Part shown: positions 37,607-48,444 of the stretch, in pieces
Layout of the letters: each line of letters starts with the position of its first letter
Position numbering within the stretch: position 1 is the first letter of the stretch
Assembly: GCA_937924775.1 (NCBI GenBank)
Contig: CALDUT010000020.1
Span: 62,001 to 126,000, forward strand
DNA: 64,000 nucleotides
Origin: an uncultured Gemmata sp.
Lineage (GTDB): Bacteria; Planctomycetota; Planctomycetia; Gemmatales; Gemmataceae
Direction of reading: 5' to 3'
Made by a program: the position numbers and the translations under genes
Notes under the pieces: generated by a model
The model's input: the letters and a program-made list of their open reading frames with translations, nothing else
Databases searched by the model: none
Told to the model about the DNA's origin: nothing

Positions 37607-38086
37607 CTACGGCGCAGTCGCGGAGAAACCCACGAGGCGATCGACATTCAACAGGGTGATCAGCCGTTCCCCCGCGCGCGCGATGCCGGTGATAAACGAC
37701 GTATCCACGCCACTTCCTAAGTCGGGAGCGGCCACCGCGTCGTGACTGGTGACGTTGAGGACATCGGAGACCGCATCGACCACCAAGCCAACAATTTTTG
37801 TGCCCACCGTGACGACAATGATGACAGTGAACCGGTTGTACTCCGTTTCCCGCAAGCCAAAGCGGACACGCAGGTCGATAATCGGAACTACCGTTCCCCG
37901 CAGATTCATCACCCCCTTGATTTCGGGGGGCGTGTTGGGCAATGGCGTGATCTTGGAATAGCCTTTAATCTCCTGGACGCGGAGAATCTCCACGCCATAC
38001 TCTTCCTCCGCCAACCGGAACGTCAGAAATTGGCGACCATCCGCGGTGAAGGTGGTGACGCCGCGATCGTTCTCGAGTGCGTTCAT
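37607..38086 (-). CDS. cheW: chemotaxis coupling protein CheW
   Basis: A 159-residue scaffold that links receptors to CheA. The core is [59 protein letters not shown] and [20 protein letters not shown] is six bases before the ATG at 38086. The start codon overlaps the cheA stop as ATGA, which implies translational coupling. Confidence 0.95.
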
Positions 38087-41000
38087 ACCAGTTCTCCTGC
38101 CCCCTTCAGGACGGGTGCAGCTCCCTCCCCCCAATCCTGTTGCATTTCCATAAAACCTTGTTGGCCGTGGATTTGCGTCAGGCCGTGAACATCCAGAATC
38201 ATGGCGACGCGGCCATCGCCCAAAATGGTGGCCCCGGCCAGCCCCTCCACGCGGCGGAAGTTGGCATCGAGGCTTTTCACAACGGCTTGAATTTGCCCCA
38301 ACAATTCGTCCACCAAAAGGGCGTACTTTTTGCCTTGATCCTCCACCACCACGACCAAACCCGCCCACGGATCGGTGACGTGGGCCGGACGGCGTAATAC
38401 GCGGTACAACCGCACCAGCGGCATAACCTCGCGGCGAACCCGGACCACTTCCCCCTGGCCAGCCAATAAGTGAACATCGCTGACCCGGGGGCGGAACGAT
38501 TCCACCACCGATAACAGCGGCACAACGTACACATCGTCGCCCAAACCCACCATCAAACCGTCCATGATGGCCAAAGTGAGCGGTAAGCGGATAGTGAAGG
38601 TGGTTCCCTGGCCGGGCTGAGTGCGAATGGCAATACTGCCCTGGAGAGCTTCAATATTGCGGCGAACAACGTCCATGCCCACGCCCCGGCCGGAAACATC
38701 CGTCACCGTGGCCGCTGTTGAGAAACCGGGGGCAAAAATGAGGGCGTAAATTTCCGCATCGCTCAGGCGTTGGCCTTCGGCCACCAGCCCTTTTTCGATC
38801 CCCTTTCGCAACAGCCGGTCGCGATCCAAACCCCGGCCGTCGTCGGCCAGTTCGATGAAAACATTCCCCCCCTGGTGATAGGCCCGCAAACTGATGCGGC
38901 CTTCAGAGGGTTTACCAGCCGCGCAGCGTTCCTCAACCGGTTCCAGCCCGTGATCAATCGCATTACGAACCATGTGCATGAGCGGATCACCCAGTTGATC
39001 GACCACGGTTTTATCAAGTTCAATCTCCTCGCCATGAAGTTCCAGTGCCACCGGTTTATTCATCTTCCGCGACAGATCACGCACCAGCCGGCTCATCTTT
39101 TGGAAGATGCCTTGCAGTGGGACCATGCGCAGCGATAGGCTCAATTCTTGCAGGTCGCGGGAAATCTTGTTCAACTCGGGTAAGGCTCGGGAATGCCACC
39201 CCGAACCGGCGGTCAGTTCGTCAAATTCCTGTTGCACCATCGACTGGGCAATCACCAGTTCGCCAATCGTATTGGTCAGTTTGTCGAGGCGTTCCTTATC
39301 TACCCGAACGGTTTCCTTCTCAGGCATGCCCAATCGCGCTGGGGCGACCGACGGTCCGACGGGACCTTGGGGCTGGGAAGGGGCCGGAGGTTCCGCTGCC
39401 ACCGTCGCGGGTTCGGACCGTGATACGGATACGGCCGACTTTTCCGAAGCGGGAGTTTCTGTGGAACGACCAACCCCCGCACGCCGCAACTCGCTGAGCA
39501 GTTGGGTCAATCCCGGCTCTGTGGGCACTGGACCGCGATCGGGCGTCCAACCGCGAAGCTGGTGAATTTGCCGTTTGAGGGCATCAGTGCTGGCGAACGC
39601 CAAATCCAGATAGCGATCTTTCAGCACGATCTGTCCGTCGCGAGCCAGATTGAGCAGATTTTCCGTTTCATGGGCCAACGTGCGGATCACTTCCAGCCGC
39701 AACATGCTGGAAACGCCCTTGATCGTGTGAAAACCGCGATAAATAGCGTTGAGCGATTCCGCGTTGGTGGGGTCGTCATCAAGAACTAACAGGTGCCGGT
39801 CGGCCGCCTCCAGGTGTTCTGTGGCCTCCGCGCAAAATTCCGGCAACATCTCCAGGCTATCGTCCGCGATCACGGTTTCCGCTGGTAGCGCAACATCGCT
39901 AACGGCAGGCGTTTCGGCCTCCGAACGCTGGTTTGCTGCCGACACGGGGGCTGTGTGCGTAAACCCTCCCGGACGCGAAGTGGACTGGTCGGTCGCGAAC
40001 GTGGCCAGTTCGACCTCCAGGGTGGGCCGATCGATCAGCCCATTTGCGATGAGAAACTCGGGCCACGCGGGTGTCCGCTGTTCCTGGAGCCGCACCAGCC
40101 GTCCTAAATCCGGATCGGTCAGGTACCCACCATCCACCGCGGCTTGGGCCCATCCAGAGCCGAGGGCCAGCCGCTGTTGGGTCTGGCGGCATTGGTCGTT
40201 CGTCATCAACCCCAGTTCCACGGCCAGCTCTCCCAGTGTCGGGCGGCACCGATGATGGCGTGCCAGGGCGTCGAGCGTTGACTCTGCGCGGAGAATGCCG
40301 CGTTTGACGAGGAAATGGGCCAGTTCCACCGGGTCCAGAACGCGCAGGCCAGGATTTTCGGACCCCCCGGACGTGGGGAGGGAAGGGGAGGACGCCGCTG
40401 AACCTGTAGGGGACACCGGTTCACGTTCGATGGTCAATTCCACCATAGCCGCGGCAAAGGCACATGCCGCCCGGATGGCCTCGGCGGATTGGTGTGTTTC
40501 GAGTCGCACCGTCCACGACACATAACAGCGTTCGGGGTCCAAGTCCCGTAGCCGGGGAAGTCCCTCCAAGTGCGGTTTGACCTCGCGGAGCGTGCCCAAT
40601 TCCTCCAACGTTCGCAGCACGACAATCGGGTCGAGCCCCGACCGCAAGGATTCCGGGTGCGGAACAAGGGTGATCCGATAGATGGTTGCCGGCTGGCCGG
40701 ACGCTGGTGGCTCAGTGGCTGACGCCTCCGTGTCCGAGGATTCCGCCCCCGCTACCGGGTGGAACAACAGGGGGTCTTCAGCCGCTTCCAGCCGAGTCTG
40801 AAGTTCCGCAATCGCCGCCGCCGCGGAATCGCCACGCCGCAGCGTGGCGACAATCTGCGTCAGAGCGTCCGTCGCTTCCAAGAGTCGATCCACCACCGCT
40901 CGGGGAATCGGGGCAGTATGGCGGAAGCCTTCCAGAACGCTTTCCAACCGGTGCGTCAATTGAGCCAACTCACGCAATCCGACAATATCGGCCCCCCCCT

Positions 41001-41151
41001 TGAGCGAATGGGCCGCCCGAAAGGCGTCGTCCACGGCCGCGGCATCGCCGAGGTTCGCGTCGAGGCGCAGCAACCCGGCTTCGAGGGCCGCCAAATGTTC
41101 CACGGCCTCTTCGAAAAACATGTCGCGGTAACGGGTCCAATCGATGTTCAT
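38083..41151 (-). CDS. cheA: chemotaxis histidine kinase CheA with two HPt domains
   Basis: A 1022-residue kinase. HPt1 is at about 5-125 (H48 in AAHSLKGGAD), a CheY-binding-like ferredoxin fold at 160-245, helical modules at about 270-385 (LAHFLVKRGILRAESTLDAL), HPt2 at 430-545 (H475 in FHTIKGVSSM), dimerisation P3 at 615-700, the ATP-binding P4 domain (N-box HMVRNAIDHGLEP, G1 DDGRGLD, G2 GRGVGMDVV) at 700-860, and a CheW-like P5 after 865. The second HPt and the middle modules make it longer than the usual 650-700 residues. Overlaps cheW by ATGA. Confidence 0.97.
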   Translation of the reverse strand: MNIDWTRYRDMFFEEAVEHLAALEAGLLRLDANLGDAAAVDDAFRAAHSLKGGADIVGLRELAQLTHRLESVLEGFRHTAPIPRAVVDRLLEATDALTQIVATLRRGDSAAAAIAELQTRLEAAEDPLLFHPVAGAESSDTEASATEPPASGQPATIYRITLVPHPESLRSGLDPIVVLRTLEELGTLREVKPHLEGLPRLRDLDPERCYVSWTVRLETHQSAEAIRAACAFAAAMVELTIEREPVSPTGSAASSPSLPTSGGSENPGLRVLDPVELAHFLVKRGILRAESTLDALARHHRCRPTLGELAVELGLMTNDQCRQTQQRLALGSGWAQAAVDGGYLTDPDLGRLVRLQEQRTPAWPEFLIANGLIDRPTLEVELATFATDQSTSRPGGFTHTAPVSAANQRSEAETPAVSDVALPAETVIADDSLEMLPEFCAEATEHLEAADRHLLVLDDDPTNAESLNAIYRGFHTIKGVSSMLRLEVIRTLAHETENLLNLARDGQIVLKDRYLDLAFASTDALKRQIHQLRGWTPDRGPVPTEPGLTQLLSELRRAGVGRSTETPASEKSAVSVSRSEPATVAAEPPAPSQPQGPVGPSVAPARLGMPEKETVRVDKERLDKLTNTIGELVIAQSMVQQEFDELTAGSGWHSRALPELNKISRDLQELSLSLRMVPLQGIFQKMSRLVRDLSRKMNKPVALELHGEEIELDKTVVDQLGDPLMHMVRNAIDHGLEPVEERCAAGKPSEGRISLRAYHQGGNVFIELADDGRGLDRDRLLRKGIEKGLVAEGQRLSDAEIYALIFAPGFSTAATVTDVSGRGVGMDVVRRNIEALQGSIAIRTQPGQGTTFTIRLPLTLAIMDGLMVGLGDDVYVVPLLSVVESFRPRVSDVHLLAGQGEVVRVRREVMPLVRLYRVLRRPAHVTDPWAGLVVVVEDQGKKYALLVDELLGQIQAVVKSLDANFRRVEGLAGATILGDGRVAMILDVHGLTQIHGQQGFMEMQQDWGEGAAPVLKGAGELV

Positions 41152-41200
41152 GCTCGCTGATCCGGCACGCGAATTCTGACCGATCGCTCCAACCCCCAGC

Positions 41201-41566
41201 TTAAGGAACCAACCGTTTTACCACCTGAATCAACCGTTGTGGGTCGAACGGTTTGACGATCCAACCCGTCGCTCCCACCGCGCGACCTTGATTCTTCCGG
41301 CTCTCATCCGATTCTGTGGTGAGAACCAGAATCGGCGTGAAGCGAAATTCTTTCTTCGCCCGGAGCTGCTCGATCAACGCCAGCCCCCCCATCACGGGCA
41401 TGTTGAGATCGGTGATCACCAGATGAACTGTCTGCCCAGATACGCAACGTAAGGCTTCTTCGCCATTGGCCCCTTCCAATACGCTGAAGCCCGCGCTGCG
41501 AAGGGTATCACCCAGCATCTGCCGAATCGTGCGCGAATCGTCGACAATCAGGACCGACTTGCCCAT
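41201..41566 (-). CDS. CheY-like response regulator
   Basis: A 121-residue single-domain receiver: SVLIVDDSRTIRQMLGDTLR, aspartate in LVITDLNMPVMGG, threonine/serine in ILVLTTESDE and lysine in GWIVKPFDPQRL. This is the classic CheY layout, shorter than the other receiver in the cluster. GAGGAA is seven bases before the ATG. It is next to cheA, 49 bases upstream of it in transcription order. Confidence 0.95.
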   Translation of the reverse strand: MGKSVLIVDDSRTIRQMLGDTLRSAGFSVLEGANGEEALRCVSGQTVHLVITDLNMPVMGGLALIEQLRAKKEFRFTPILVLTTESDESRKNQGRAVGATGWIVKPFDPQRLIQVVKRLVP

Positions 41567-41600
41567 GGTGTGTTCCTCAGTTCGCTTCCAGGCGGCCCTG

Positions 41601-41981
41601 TCACCGCGACTGAACCGGGGCTGCCTCATTTCCTTCCGCCGCGGGTTCCGGTGGTAACAATTTGGTCAGTCCCGTTTGGCGGAAAACGTCGCGCGTCGGG
41701 CCATGGACACCGCACCACACGCACGCCCCACCCTGTTCCACCACGTCCCGGTACAGGCTGAGCAGAATTTGCAAGCTCGCAGTGTCCAAACTTTGAACAT
41801 CCGAACAGTCAATTTCCACGGACGATGGCCGCGTCGCGAGGCCCGTCGCCAGTTGATGCAATGCGGCCGCTCGGTGAGCCGTGAGCTTCCCGGTGAGAAT
41901 CAGCCGTTGCCGGTCAGGACTGACGGGGAGTATCCTAAACGAGTTGTTGGTGTCGGTTTCGGCGTTGGGGCTAGGCGCCAT
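41601..41981 (-). CDS. STAS-domain protein (anti-sigma antagonist-like)
   Basis: A 126-residue protein. The region RLILTGKLTAHRAAALHQL followed by SSVEIDCSDVQSLDTASLQI, LLSLYRDVVEQGG has the STAS fold with the usual serine position (SLDTAS) for phosphorylation-type switching. It resembles both anti-anti-sigma factors and MlaB-type proteins. The ATG at 41981 has GGAG upstream; in-frame starts at 41987, 41993 and 42008 are alternatives. It is the first gene of the chemosensory cluster, so it may regulate the cluster or couple it to another pathway. Confidence 0.7.
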   Translation of the reverse strand: MAPSPNAETDTNNSFRILPVSPDRQRLILTGKLTAHRAAALHQLATGLATRPSSVEIDCSDVQSLDTASLQILLSLYRDVVEQGGACVWCGVHGPTRDVFRQTGLTKLLPPEPAAEGNEAAPVQSR

Positions 41982-42320
41982 CGCCATCTCCATACAGTGG
42001 AAGACCACTTTCTGAACACCTTAGAACACGAATTCAGCCGCGGTCGTAACGAGACACGGAAAATCGCTACAACAGAAATTCCCACGAGCGAAAGTCTTCA
42101 TTCCAACTAAAATCTTCTTGACAAAATGAAAACCGTTATTGCTTAAAACGCCGCAGGATCTGATGTTTGAGCGGCTGGAGTTGAGGACGCAGAAGTATTT
42201 GCCAGTGCCTAGGGGGGGGAAACGCAGACCCAAGACAGCCCGCGGCCGGTGAATACAACGCCTCTAGCTTCGTCGCCAGCAGGTGGTGAAGCGCTGCGAT
42301 CCCTGCGTGAAGCCTTCCCT
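41982..42320. other. divergent intergenic region between chemosensory cluster and methyltransferase gene
   Basis: About 340 bases without a gene. It must hold the promoter for the minus-strand chemosensory operon and the plus-strand methyltransferase gene. It is less GC-rich in its middle (42060-42150). On the plus strand TTGACA at 42119-42124 is a perfect -35 hexamer, followed at about 17-18 bases by GCTTAAAA, a weak -10. A convincing minus-strand promoter was not found. Confidence 0.3.
42119..42147 (+). promoter_or_regulatory. candidate sigma-70-type promoter
   Basis: TTGACA (-35, consensus) at 42119-42124 followed by a spacer of 17-18 bases and CTTAAA, which shares only three bases with TATAAT. 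The gene it could serve starts about 175 bases downstream, giving a long leader. Low confidence. Confidence 0.25.
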
Positions 42321-43944: not shown

Positions 43945-44556
43945 TCAACGTAGCAGGCGTACCGCTTTCACAATATATTGCACCCCGCTGCCCACCGTGG
44001 CGGCGAGCATCGCCCACAGAAGCACCGCCTGGAGAGACTTCAGCAGCGCCAGAACCGGAGGAATCGATGTCTCCGCCGCTTCGGGCGCTGCGTGCGATTC
44101 CAGCAAAGCCAGCAAGAAAACGCCGATCAGCACCGCACATTGCAACACCATTTTGAGTTTGCCGAACCAATCGGCCCCGAATTTCTGGCCCGCGGCTTCG
44201 ACCATGCCCCGAATTCCGGTCACAAGCAATTCGCGGCAGACAATCACCGTCACCATCCACGGCACAATTCCCGCCGCTTCCACCGGAATCAGGTAAATGA
44301 ACGCCCCACATACCAACACCTTATCGGCCAGTGGATCGAGATTGCGGCCCACTAGCGTCAGCGGGCCGTACCGGCGGGCCCACCAGCCATCGAGCCAGTC
44401 GGTCGCTGTCGCGAGCAGAAACACGATCAACGCGACCAGCCACCATGATTTCACTATACAAAAGAATAGAAAGATAGCCAAGGGAATCCGCGCCAACGAC
44501 AGCAGATTCGGGATGTGGAGCAGCGGTTCGGGTGGGGCCGGCGTTGAAGCACTCAT
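43945..44556 (-). CDS. pgsA: CDP-diacylglycerol-glycerol-3-phosphate 3-phosphatidyltransferase
   Basis: A 203-residue membrane enzyme that makes phosphatidylglycerophosphate, the precursor of phosphatidylglycerol and cardiolipin. It carries the CDP-alcohol phosphatidyltransferase motif DGWWAR, then eight residues, then G, three residues, D, three residues, D (GRNLDPLAD). Four or five membrane segments are evident. Length is normal. The ATG at 44556 is chosen because the upstream 54 residues are unlike the family. It follows the vWA gene by 79 bases on the same strand. Confidence 0.92.
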   Translation of the reverse strand: MSASTPAPPEPLLHIPNLLSLARIPLAIFLFFCIVKSWWLVALIVFLLATATDWLDGWWARRYGPLTLVGRNLDPLADKVLVCGAFIYLIPVEAAGIVPWMVTVIVCRELLVTGIRGMVEAAGQKFGADWFGKLKMVLQCAVLIGVFLLALLESHAAPEAAETSIPPVLALLKSLQAVLLWAMLAATVGSGVQYIVKAVRLLR

Positions 44557-44635: not shown

Positions 44636-46222
44636 TTAGGGTTTGGACATCCCCACAAAGCTGCCATCGTTTTCACGCGACAGCGACCACAAGAACGCCC
44701 CAAGATCGGGGCTATCAAAGTAGAAGCCGATGGAATGGATTTTCACACGCGGCCGGCCATGATCGGCGCGGTTCCAACTGCGAGCGAGTTTGTCGCGAAC
44801 GTACTTGCCGAGAATCACACCTCGCTCATGTTCCGACAGATTCTCCTGAGCCGGGGTGAGGCCTTCGCCACTGGTGGGCAAGCCATCGGAGAAGAGGTAA
44901 ATCGTATCCAACCCAGTGGCCCGCAAGGAAAATGCCTTCTCAAACGCGGCAAACATATTCGTATCGTCTTTGGGTTTGACTTGCAACAGGGCCTTGCGGA
45001 CCGCCTCCACGCACGGCTCCCCAGTGAAAGTCCGCCACTGGCCACTCCCGAAAAGCCAATGCGCCGAACTGGAGAACACAATCACCTGGTACTCTTCCAG
45101 TGTCGGGATGCTGCGCATCACCTTACAAACGGTTTCGACCACCAGTGGCCATTTGCTCGAGTCGAGCGTGGTCAGATCACGCTTGCCCATACTGCCGGAC
45201 ATATCGACGATGAAGACGGCTTTTTTGCCGGTCATCGCAATTCCGGCGAAGCGGGCCTCGGTTTCCTTTTGGAACTTGTTGAATTGATCGGCAAGTTTGG
45301 CTTTGTCGCCTTGCAGGTCGATGATGGTGGTGTTGGCCTCGTCGATCTTCTTGGTTAGTTGCTGGATTTGCAACTTGGCCGCGGCGAGTTCGTCCCCGGT
45401 CTGAGTGGCTTGGGCTTTGGCGGTCGCCAGTTGCTCGGTGGCGATTTTCAGAGCCGCTTTGGCACGGGCCAGTTCTTCCATGGCCCCCTTGGCCGCGGTA
45501 TGGGCCGCAGCGATGTTTGCATCGAGTTCTTTTTGGGTGGCGAGGCGTTTCGCTTCTGCTTCGGCGAGTTCCTTCTTGAGGGCCGCGAGGCGGTTTTCGA
45601 GAGAAAGCCGTTCGTCGTCTTTTTGACGGAGCAGCTTTTGCAACCGGTCCATTTCCAGGGTGGAAGCGGCTTCCTTCTTCGCCAGGGCGTCAATATCCGC
45701 GAGCTTTGTTTTGAGCTGTTCATTGAGCGTGGTGAGGTCGCGGCGGGTGTCGGCGAGTTCTTGGGCTGTGATGTCGGCACGCTTCTCGGCAACGGCCAGC
45801 GCGGTCTGCTGTGCCGCCAAGCGGGTCTGGGCCGCCTTGGCGTCGTCGCGGGCTTGCGCCAGTTGCCTGGCGAGGTCATTGTTTTCGGCCCGGGTGGTGG
45901 CGAGCCGTTCCCCCAGCATCTGCACTTCCGCCAGCAATTTCCGGCGAAGTCCGTCCAACTCGGTGACTGTTCCCACGAGGCGGGCCCGCTCGTGTTCGAC
46001 TGTGGCGAGCCGGGTTTGTGTGTCGCTGAGTAAGCCGATGGCGTCGGTCAATTGTTGATCCGTGATGGCGAGTTGCTGGCCGAGGGCGTTTTTCGCCTCG
46101 ACCGCGTCGCTGGCCATGCGGCTGTTGATGAGAAACAGCAGCGAAACGCACCCCAGTGCACAACAGAACACATCGAGCATCCACATGCTCACGAGGGTCG
46201 GCGGTTTGTGATGCACTTTCAT
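44636..46222 (-). CDS. membrane-anchored coiled-coil vWA-domain protein
   Basis: A 528-residue protein. A single N-terminal membrane segment (SMWMLDVFCCALGCVSLLFL) is followed by about 290 residues of alanine/leucine/lysine/glutamate-rich coiled coil (for example ELADTRRDLTTLNEQLKTKL). Residues from about 335 are a vWA domain with an intact MIDAS: DMSGSMG, the threonine in DDTNMFAAF and aspartate in LFSDGLPTSGEG. The topology resembles MotB or TolR with a vWA in place of the peptidoglycan-binding domain. It is encoded 28 bases after an Hsp70-like gene and downstream of an ExbB/TolQ channel gene, suggesting a shared complex. Confidence 0.7.
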   Translation of the reverse strand: MKVHHKPPTLVSMWMLDVFCCALGCVSLLFLINSRMASDAVEAKNALGQQLAITDQQLTDAIGLLSDTQTRLATVEHERARLVGTVTELDGLRRKLLAEVQMLGERLATTRAENNDLARQLAQARDDAKAAQTRLAAQQTALAVAEKRADITAQELADTRRDLTTLNEQLKTKLADIDALAKKEAASTLEMDRLQKLLRQKDDERLSLENRLAALKKELAEAEAKRLATQKELDANIAAAHTAAKGAMEELARAKAALKIATEQLATAKAQATQTGDELAAAKLQIQQLTKKIDEANTTIIDLQGDKAKLADQFNKFQKETEARFAGIAMTGKKAVFIVDMSGSMGKRDLTTLDSSKWPLVVETVCKVMRSIPTLEEYQVIVFSSSAHWLFGSGQWRTFTGEPCVEAVRKALLQVKPKDDTNMFAAFEKAFSLRATGLDTIYLFSDGLPTSGEGLTPAQENLSEHERGVILGKYVRDKLARSWNRADHGRPRVKIHSIGFYFDSPDLGAFLWSLSRENDGSFVGMSKP

Positions 46223-46250
46223 GGCCAAGACCGTAGCGGTGTATGCCTCG

Positions 46251-47471
46251 TTATTTGGCACCGGGTTGGGCACGATGCGTCAGCGCGCTGGGGAGTTCGA
46301 GGGGAATAACACTATCCAAATGCGTGCGCGGTAAATCGCCCGCCAGCCAACGGGGTACCAATGCCGCGGTGGCTGCGGCCACCGCGGAGGGCGAAAGGAC
46401 TTCAATTGCCGTGGCTTCCGAGGTATTGGTATGAATAGCGCTGACCAGGCCGGGCAGGCGGCCCGCGGCATCCGTCAGCCACACCACGGTGGGCGGTACA
46501 ACCAGCCCGATACCGTTGATGAAATCGCGGATCGACTCCCCCGCGAACCGGCTGAGAGAGTGGCAGTGGGCGGCGAATTCCTCCGGTTGTTGGATCACAT
46601 CCTGGAACCAGTGGGCCGTGCGTACGGTGAGGCTGATCCGCTGCCCGGCGCGGGCTCGGTCGAGGGCGTCATCCAACTGATCGTAGAGGGCTTGTTCGGC
46701 TTCGGCGGAATCGCGTGGATCGCGGCGACATAAACGCACGCAGCGATCCGCAACCGCATCGAGCAGGCGATCTTTCCAGATTTTGAGGCCCAGGCGGGGC
46801 CAGGCGGCAGAAGCGGCCAACTTGACTCGATCCGGGTTCACTTGAACCAATACGGCACTCAGAGCGCATTCATCGGCATCGACGACGACCACAGTCGCCG
46901 CAGGCCGCGGTTCTAGACGCAACGGCACCACCCAATCCGCGGAAGGCGGCGGCACGCTGTGGGCGGAGCCTGTGAGAAGTTGGGCCGCATGGTCGGCCAC
47001 CACGACCAACGTCCCGACCGCTGTTCCTTTCAGTGGGAGCTTGGCCCGGTGGGCCGTCGCGGCGACCCGGCTGACCTGCGCCGGCGACAGATACGCCGGC
47101 AGAGCCAGGCCAATCGATTCTGTTTCGGCTATAACGGGTTTGCGAATCGTCTCGAAAATCAGCCCCAGTGCCGTTTCGGCCGTGAGGGTGTGACGGCCCA
47201 TCCGCCATTCGCGGGATTGATTCAGCGACGCCAGGAAGTTGGAACAGACCAGATGCGGCCAACGGCGGCAGATCGCCACCGCCGCCTGGCCCACCACCGG
47301 CACACGCCGCTCCCCCGAAATGAACAGTTGTAGTTCCGTGGCCGGTTCGTCGAGTACCAGCGGACGAAACTCACTGCTCAGGGCTTCAGCCCGCACGCGG
47401 CTGGCTGTCAAGTCCAAGCCGACCGCCCGCACCCGATCATGCACCGATGCCGATTTCCGCGACCACAGCAT
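46251..47471 (-). CDS. degenerate Hsp70/actin-fold protein
   Basis: A 406-residue protein that resembles the Hsp70 ATPase fold with worn motifs. AVGLDLTASRVRAEAL occupies the phosphate-1 position, VVVDADECALSAVLVQV the phosphate-2 position (usually DxGGGT), and VVWLTDAAGRLPGLVSAI the adenosine motif (usually GGxxR). The glycine-rich parts are lost, so ATP hydrolysis is doubtful. GGAAG lies six bases before the ATG at 47471. It sits between the ExbB/TolQ gene and the vWA gene, so it could be an assembly or structural part of their complex. Identification by motif order only. Confidence 0.45.
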   Translation of the reverse strand: MLWSRKSASVHDRVRAVGLDLTASRVRAEALSSEFRPLVLDEPATELQLFISGERRVPVVGQAAVAICRRWPHLVCSNFLASLNQSREWRMGRHTLTAETALGLIFETIRKPVIAETESIGLALPAYLSPAQVSRVAATAHRAKLPLKGTAVGTLVVVADHAAQLLTGSAHSVPPPSADWVVPLRLEPRPAATVVVVDADECALSAVLVQVNPDRVKLAASAAWPRLGLKIWKDRLLDAVADRCVRLCRRDPRDSAEAEQALYDQLDDALDRARAGQRISLTVRTAHWFQDVIQQPEEFAAHCHSLSRFAGESIRDFINGIGLVVPPTVVWLTDAAGRLPGLVSAIHTNTSEATAIEVLSPSAVAAATAALVPRWLAGDLPRTHLDSVIPLELPSALTHRAQPGAK

Positions 47472-47649
47472 AAATCGCTTCCACGTTATTGCCACTTTTG
47501 CGATCCGAATACTCCCCCTGTTTTCCAGTCCTTCGGTCGAGGGACGGTATCCTTCAGCGGCCGAAAGTTCCGCTCCTACAAAACGCTGTCAGCGAACCCT
47601 GGGCGAACCAGAAAATTCCCACTCCCGTTTTCCTGGCAGCTACGTAGCA

Positions 47650-48444
47650 TTAGATGCCCCCTTCTTTGGCCGGGTCGTACAGCCGCAGGAGCAAATGTTC
47701 CTGGCAATACTGCTGGGCATCGGTGATCAGCGTTTCCTCAGCCCGTTGCACCATATGCAGAAAATACATCACGATCAGGCTAAGGACCAAGGCCACCAAC
47801 GTACAATCGAAGGCGATATTGAGTTGATCCTTGGCTTGATCAGTGAACTTCAGAATGTCGCTTTCGCGAACACCGAACGCCCCACCCAGCCCGCGGACTG
47901 TACCCACAAAACCAATGGCTGGAATCGCCCAGGCCAGGTAGTTCACCGTCGCCATGGTGGCAATCAAGCGTGACAACTCGACATCCGCCTGATTGCGAAC
48001 CACTTCGGCCACGTCCGGGGCCGATTTGCTGATGGCGAACTTGCCCAAACCGAGCCGAACCATGTTCGCCAAAATCAATGGTTGCCCGTGGGTGAGCTGC
48101 TCGATTTTACGGGTGAGCGGGCGGGCGTCTTCGGGAAGAATGCGGGCCCCCTCTTCGGTGGGTAGTAAATCCATGCCGAAGGCGCGGCGTTGCCGCAGCA
48201 CTTCGCGGTAACGGCTTTGGAGGATCAAGCCGGCCCAGACCGCGCACAGATAACACAGCACCTGTTCCGGACCGATGAACAGCCGCAGCAGGCGTTCCTC
48301 CGTCCACCTGCGGGCCCAATCCTCGCGCATGGCCACACCGCCGAGCAGTTGCCACACCGGAGTGATCACCCCGCCCACAATCACCAGGGCCACAAGCAGC
48401 AACAGCCACTCCCGAGCCGGCCGGTGGGATGCGGAGATCGCCAT
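47650..48444 (-). CDS. MotA/TolQ/ExbB-family proton channel protein
   Basis: A 264-residue inner-membrane protein. Membrane segments at about 13-35, 57-75, 165-190 and 208-228. YLAWAIPAIGFVGTVRGLGGAF followed by DILKFTDQAKDQLNIAFDCT and LVALVLSLIVMYFLH is the family core. TolQ, ExbB and MotA form proton channels that power envelope work or flagellar rotation. No flagellar gene or TolR/ExbD gene is adjacent; the vWA protein downstream could be its membrane partner. It starts the three-gene unit, with a 178-base gap to the next gene. Confidence 0.85.
   Translation of the reverse strand: MAISASHRPAREWLLLLVALVIVGGVITPVWQLLGGVAMREDWARRWTEERLLRLFIGPEQVLCYLCAVWAGLILQSRYREVLRQRRAFGMDLLPTEEGARILPEDARPLTRKIEQLTHGQPLILANMVRLGLGKFAISKSAPDVAEVVRNQADVELSRLIATMATVNYLAWAIPAIGFVGTVRGLGGAFGVRESDILKFTDQAKDQLNIAFDCTLVALVLSLIVMYFLHMVQRAEETLITDAQQYCQEHLLLRLYDPAKEGGI

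Follow-up and report, generated by a model that had tools for sequence, protein, structure and literature searches.

A conserved three-gene unit of Gemmatales encoding a TolQ/ExbB-type channel, a degenerate Hsp70-like protein and a membrane-anchored vWA protein

The stretch analysed here (the window) comprises 64,000 nucleotides of contig CALDUT010000020.1 (C20) from the 4.8 Mb genome of an uncultured Gemmata sp. (Planctomycetota; Gemmatales). Three consecutive minus-strand genes were studied. In order, they encode a TolQ/ExbB-type proton channel of 264 residues (47650..48444), a protein with the nucleotide-binding domain of Hsp70 and degenerate glycine loops (46251..47471) and a membrane-anchored coiled-coil protein with a vWA domain (44636..46222). 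All features of this unit given below lie on the minus strand. An earlier note on this DNA had described a channel, an Hsp70-like protein without its loops and a one-helix coiled-coil vWA protein with a metal ion-dependent adhesion site (MIDAS); coordinates and identities were confirmed by domain, profile and fold evidence. Two starts were judged against relatives: the Hsp70-like gene is open from 47495 and likely starts at 47471 (MLW...), and the vWA gene is open from 46273 and likely starts at 46222 (MKVHHK...). The nearest relative with all three genes, a contig labelled 'Gemmata sp. isolate SKYG68', has a channel 93% identical to that of the window. Ratios of nonsynonymous to synonymous substitution rates (dN/dS) against this relative were about 0.04 (channel), 0.11 (Hsp70-like) and 0.14 (vWA), so that selection keeps all three genes. 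A scan for sigma-70 promoters was uninformative (1 site against a chance mean of 1.0).

The channel protein matches Pfam MotA_ExbB (E 1.7e-7, 31.5 bits against a cut-off of 22.9). Its AlphaFold2 model reached a predicted local distance difference test score (pLDDT) of 85.6 and contains four long membrane-type helices (residues 12-34, 59-90, 165-190 and 197-250). Foldseek returned ExbB and TolQ as top matches (template modelling (TM) scores up to 0.55/0.65); in the ranking by fold, ZorA stood between these and the MotA chains, which came lowest. Two threonines typical of the family were located. Thr182 (codon 47899..47901), in the helix with WAIPxxGFxGT, aligns with an ExbB of the same genome, and Thr215 (47800..47802) lies in the last helix. 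Both are invariant in the 59 rows of channel alignment A7, and Thr215 is also kept in 8/8 rows of alignment A8, which includes ExbB and MotA of the same genome. Four further channel-family matches were found in this genome, on contigs C12, C10, C1 and C19. Those on C12 and C10 each adjoin two ExbD proteins, and that on C1 adjoins a MotB-type protein.

Channel comparison also drew attention to a cytoplasmic-loop motif, ILPED (48127..48141), which may be a docking site for the Hsp70-like protein. Strict LPED was present in 44 of 56 Gemmatales channel rows and in three loci outside the order (L238, L240 and L264). It was found neither in L241, whose Hsp70-like gene is divergent, nor in the 11 Hsp70-less channels compared. 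As proof of docking the motif was rejected: most of its bearers fall in one clade of the channel tree, so that its co-occurrence with the Hsp70-like gene is largely one event.

For the Hsp70-like protein alone, searches of Pfam, NCBIfam and PADLOC gave no match above threshold. A profile of 56 relatives (alignment A6) matches DnaK at E 4.4e-18 over positions 8-369, which corresponds to the whole nucleotide-binding domain. The AlphaFold2 model (pLDDT 92.0, predicted TM score 0.89) was placed by Foldseek first with DnaK and other Hsp70 chains (best E 6.4e-20; 6w6e_I with TM 0.73/0.84). Judged by profile and predicted fold, the Hsp70 assignment of the second gene is real. All three glycine loops are lost in 56/56 rows. 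The glycine of the phosphate-1 loop (GLDLTASRVRA, 47388..47420) is replaced by T, N, D or S and that after D-x in the phosphate-2 loop (VVVDADECALSA, 46854..46889) by D, each in all 56, and GG of the adenosine loop (VVWLTDAAGRLPG, 46449..46487) is retained in 0/56. An Hsp70 paralogue of the same genome (L248) retains all three loops. The relatives share an invariant R-x-D-x-R motif (56/56 rows, RRDPR in most), and the window's protein stops after the nucleotide-binding domain, without a substrate-binding domain. Classical chaperoning is unlikely because of this truncation and the loss of the ATP loops. In 11 of the 56 relatives a C-terminal FHA domain follows the Hsp70-like domain (E <= 1, best 1.1e-15). 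The homologue at L144 bears FHA at E 4.6e-13. Two irregular forms of the gene were met: at L142 (5914-7938) the channel and the Hsp70-like domain share one open frame of 674 residues, and in a two-contig genome (G017:C1:3273082-3274252) the Hsp70-like gene is broken into three frames within an otherwise complete unit.

The vWA protein matches VWA_2 at E 5.4e-8, above the cut-off of that family. A short positive N-terminus is followed by a single hydrophobic helix of the transpore type (PTLVSMWMLDVFCCALGCVSLLFLI, 46127..46201), a predicted coiled-coil stalk of about 290 residues with matches of the SMC type (45254..46126) and, last, a vWA domain whose MIDAS is intact (44639..45253). The MIDAS residues D357, S359, S361, T438 and D463 are invariant in 16/16 rows of alignment A3, as is an aspartate in the helix, Asp34 (codon 46172..46174). 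This residue sits in MWMLDVFC at the position of the aspartate in the ExbD/MotB helices of the same genome (VPMLDMTF, VPLLDLVL and AYADFVT). It was present in 25/25 vWA proteins, namely that of the window and those of 24 units found via channel or Hsp70 matches, in which the stalk measures 225-305 residues. In a wider count over 57 loci, of which three were dropped for a vWA start that could not be parsed, a script found the aspartate in 53/54; the exception, L137, is a frame called too long, and its helix does have the residue. The wider set was partly selected by an Asp-holding pattern, and the claim therefore rests on the 25 proteins. Genome G062, which has neither a close channel nor the Hsp70-like gene, joins this vWA domain (E 1e-75) in one protein with a kinase (L243, 6402-8411; Pkinase E 2.8e-52), and the helix there (MVVLLLLIMGCGMLFLN) lacks the aspartate. 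The aspartate thus goes with the channel and not with the vWA domain. The G062 kinase spans the membrane with the vWA domain at its end, an arrangement that would suit a sensor in the periplasm.

Domain searches gave no match of the vWA protein to the TolR/ExbD family. ExbD genes occur somewhere in all 32 genomes searched. In the window's own genome they lie, among the matches listed (3 of 4), on C12 and C10, the latter with a second copy, and none on C20; in other genomes, again among the matches listed, none is closer than 40 kb to a unit that was read. The invariant helix aspartate, the positive N-terminus, the tight synteny with the channel and the lack of a listed ExbD match on the contig together argue for a TolR/ExbD/MotB role of the vWA protein. 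That it stands in for TolR/MotB, as the earlier note had proposed, is well supported. The interpretation in the note is thus partly supported; its further suggestion, help in assembly by the Hsp70-like protein, gained no such support.

Conservation of the neighbourhood in other planctomycetes had been set beforehand as a check on the unit, and the unit passed it. Of the 31 other genomes of the order in the search, 27 were fetched, and 24 of these have the genes adjoining on one strand in the order channel, Hsp70-like, vWA. In the remaining three (G006, G023 and G027) the genes lie apart, yet all three are present. The full order was likewise found at 57 of 75 named loci, a set that overlaps the 27 genomes and draws many loci from the same contigs. 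Of the remaining 18, 14 are cut by contig ends, three lack the Hsp70-like gene and one (L113) has the vWA gene alone. With at most the best 18 candidates scored per genome, the Hsp70-like protein was detected at E <= 1e-40 in 90/102 genomes of the order. Eight of the 12 genomes without it also show neither this vWA protein nor a close channel.

Outside the order, among 391 other genomes of the phylum sampled, with at most the best eight candidates scored in each, no vWA match was better than E 4.1e-19. Four genomes from two other, distant planctomycete families (L238-L241) contain channel, Hsp70-like and two vWA genes in a row. Both vWA helices carry the aspartate, and the channels group with those of Gemmatales in the tree (support 92/86, just under the star of the tool). 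In L241 the channel sits on a long branch and the matches of the Hsp70-like and second vWA proteins are weak (2.6e-5 and 2.9e-4). A tblastn search of plasmids with a paired-type vWA protein gave no match. Beyond Planctomycetota, three plasmid channels came up, one of Rhizobium and two of cyanobacteria; the Rhizobium locus and one cyanobacterial locus were inspected. Among the loci read, L259 was set aside for want of a channel call, and the partner in L260 is cut by a contig end.

Several of these distant loci hold phospho-signalling genes. L262 (3824-9236) and L263 (5160-10292), the places of L178 and L179, contain a protein kinase, an FHA-trypsin protein, a channel and a vWA protein in a row. 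L264 (5141-10321), from a planctomycete of another order, has FHA, FHA-trypsin and Hsp70-FHA proteins, a channel and a 235-residue one-helix protein with the aspartate and no vWA match; its Hsp70-like protein retains the phosphate-1 glycine. On plasmid pRlBT01d of Rhizobium leguminosarum (L254, 3551-6344) a PP2C phosphatase, an FHA protein, a channel and a one-helix Asp protein follow each other, with a kinase-like frame before them as read by eye; a TolQ-like motor here adjoins a set of phospho-signalling genes. Since this type of channel is repeatedly accompanied by Hsp70-like, FHA and kinase parts, a cytoplasmic regulatory role is likely. A different arrangement was seen in L095, L096, L097, L098 and L265, in which a longer channel (about 460-660 residues, with N-terminal CxxC motifs in those read) precedes one-helix proteins, one with the helix aspartate (DSLLDTMTNVVG) and one without it (PFLSILACVIG); in L098 the Asp-less partner alone was called. 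These partners suggest an asymmetric axle in the planctomycetes with longer channels.

We consider it likely that the unit encodes a motor driven by the proton motive force, of the same kind as TolQ-TolR, ExbB-ExbD and MotA-MotB, with the vWA protein as axle and the Hsp70-like protein as scaffold or clutch. In the inner membrane, five channel subunits would probably assemble into a ring, and two vWA proteins would insert their Asp34 helices into its pore. Protons passing Asp34 and the channel threonines would turn or pull this axle. The stalk, about 43 nm long if it is one continuous helix, could take the MIDAS domain across the periplasm, where the wall or the outer membrane may offer it a metal-dependent ligand. 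On the cytoplasmic face of the channel the Hsp70-like pseudo-ATPase may dock as a scaffold or clutch under phospho-control. Because relatives of the Hsp70-like protein carry the FHA domain, a phospho-threonine reader, Ser/Thr kinases probably switch the motor. Regulation fits a conserved pseudo-ATPase with ties to FHA domains no less well than does the assembly role suggested before. A bolder version is put forward tentatively and is rather doubtful as a whole: in an ion-driven 5:2 motor a dead Hsp70 would be the clutch, controlled by phosphorylation, and would clamp the channel ring from the cytoplasm, kinase marks would be read by its FHA domain or by a partner FHA protein, and a 40-nm vWA grapple would be swung across the planctomycete periplasm. 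Gemmata-type bacteria have unusual, invaginated envelopes.

Several observations weigh against the motor with its Hsp70-like clutch. Four genomes of the order retain an incomplete set, namely G016, G051 and G108, which are fragmented, and G062, which is 91% complete. In L176, L178 and L179, from Candidatus Uabimicrobium amorphum and its kin, the channel and vWA genes occur with no Hsp70-like gene at the locus, and the Hsp70-like gene is therefore not essential to this kind of motor. FHA is absent from the Hsp70-like protein of the window itself, and the fusion of channel and Hsp70-like domain in L142 is a single case that may be an assembly frame error. For the channel, the Foldseek E-values are modest (best 7e-4), and a search of its profile against PDB by sequence gave 0 chains at E <= 1. 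The one-helix neighbour of the C19 channel (motif IPLIDVL) has no ExbD family match, so that textbook partners do not accompany all the channels of this genome.

Three other explanations were weighed. The unit might not be a motor at all and might instead serve assembly or quality control, with the channel as a non-conducting scaffold, the Hsp70-like protein as chaperone and the vWA domain as substrate holder. A part in assembly complexes is common for vWA domains, and the Hsp70 fold of the second protein would fit; the proton-path aspartate and both threonines are, however, invariant, and a chaperone without ATP loops in 56/56 rows and without a substrate-binding domain is hard to reconcile with such a complex, which we regard as unlikely. 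It is quite improbable that the vWA protein is a TolA/TonB-like transducer at the side of the channel, with a TolR/ExbD protein encoded elsewhere as the true axle. ExbD genes are available for this in every genome searched, and a transducer-type vWA family, found in Planctomycetes too and placed beside TPR, tolQ and a tolR-like pair, is described in a recent study (PMC12204202). The axle-type aspartate in 25/25 helices and its loss where the vWA domain serves a kinase speak against a transducer, as do the distances of the listed ExbD matches from the units.

Because the channel weakly matches ZorA2 (E 0.0021), a Zorya-like defence system was considered; we regard it as very improbable. The earlier note had set the layout apart from flagellar stators and from Zorya, and the distinction held: domain searches found no OmpA-like peptidoglycan-binding domain in the proteins of the unit, which has a vWA domain where Zorya has the OmpA-like one, and ZorB, ZorC and ZorD were unmatched among the three proteins (neighbouring genes were not scanned). 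The steady presence in the order is also unlike that of a patchy defence island.

Neighbouring genes were considered as further members of the unit. The gene pgsA (43945-44556) comes immediately after the unit in the window and in L066 and L074 and lies 1.6-3.4 kb off in L068, L069, L072 and L073; it was rejected as a fourth member, as it was not seen near 18/24 intact units. A divergent FG-GAP gene was rejected too, being in the opposite direction and present in 12 of 24 stretches and not in the others. A few kb from the unit, genes read from the sequence as CheW-like, CheA-like, response regulator and STAS-like lie at 37607-42008 of the window, with no sign that this cluster belongs to the three genes.

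By comparison with known systems, the unit shares channel family, fold, threonines and Asp helix with TolQ-TolR and ExbB-ExbD. It differs from them in the long stalk and vWA domain in place of the small periplasmic domain of TolR/ExbD and in the additional Hsp70-like gene. TolQ and ExbB have three membrane helices, compared with the four in the channel model. The MotA-MotB stator and ZorA-ZorB likewise combine a channel with a one-helix partner, there with the OmpA-like domain that is missing here. The Hsp70-like protein resembles DnaK over the whole nucleotide-binding domain by profile and fold and departs from it by the lost glycine loops, the missing substrate-binding domain and its own R-x-D-x-R motif. 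As a fixed companion it suggests that an envelope motor is controlled from the cytoplasm; we know of no such control step for Tol or Ton. For gene removal, the unit is a concrete target in Limnoglobus roseus and Zavarzinella formosa, both named strains. A word search of the available text of PMC12215075 did not return pore residues. The gliding motor AglRQS of Myxococcus is alike as a TolQR-type motor with an FHA-domain protein, GltG; in its cluster as given in the source, AglQ and AglS are ExbD/TolR proteins and no Hsp70-like or vWA partner is listed (PMC3169522).

The closest likeness is to the TPH-vWA units with TolQ-like genes (Mol Biol Evol 2025, PMC12204202), compared here by their published description, in which one-helix vWA proteins with the axle aspartate are proposed to replace TolR/ExbD. 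A vWA protein as TolQ partner is therefore not novel. Both kinds of unit have the channel, the one-helix vWA protein with aspartate and no tolR/exbD nearby. The published vWA genes are predominantly heterologous pairs, mainly from Proteobacteria and Verrucomicrobia (PMC12204202), whereas the Gemmatales unit has a single long-stalked vWA gene with the pseudo-Hsp70 gene in between. Such pairs, not a strict criterion in the published definition, were seen in L238-L241 and not in Gemmatales units. The words Hsp70, DnaK, chaperone and Gemmata do not occur in the main text of that paper, and in the open-access PMC literature searched no published description of a pseudo-Hsp70 or FHA companion of TolQ and vWA was found; the pseudo-Hsp70 companion appears to be new. 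What is new here is the Gemmatales form, a variant of the recently described motor. To the motors predicted in 2025 (PMC12204202) it adds a lineage with a single long-stalked vWA axle and a fixed, conserved pseudo-Hsp70 companion.

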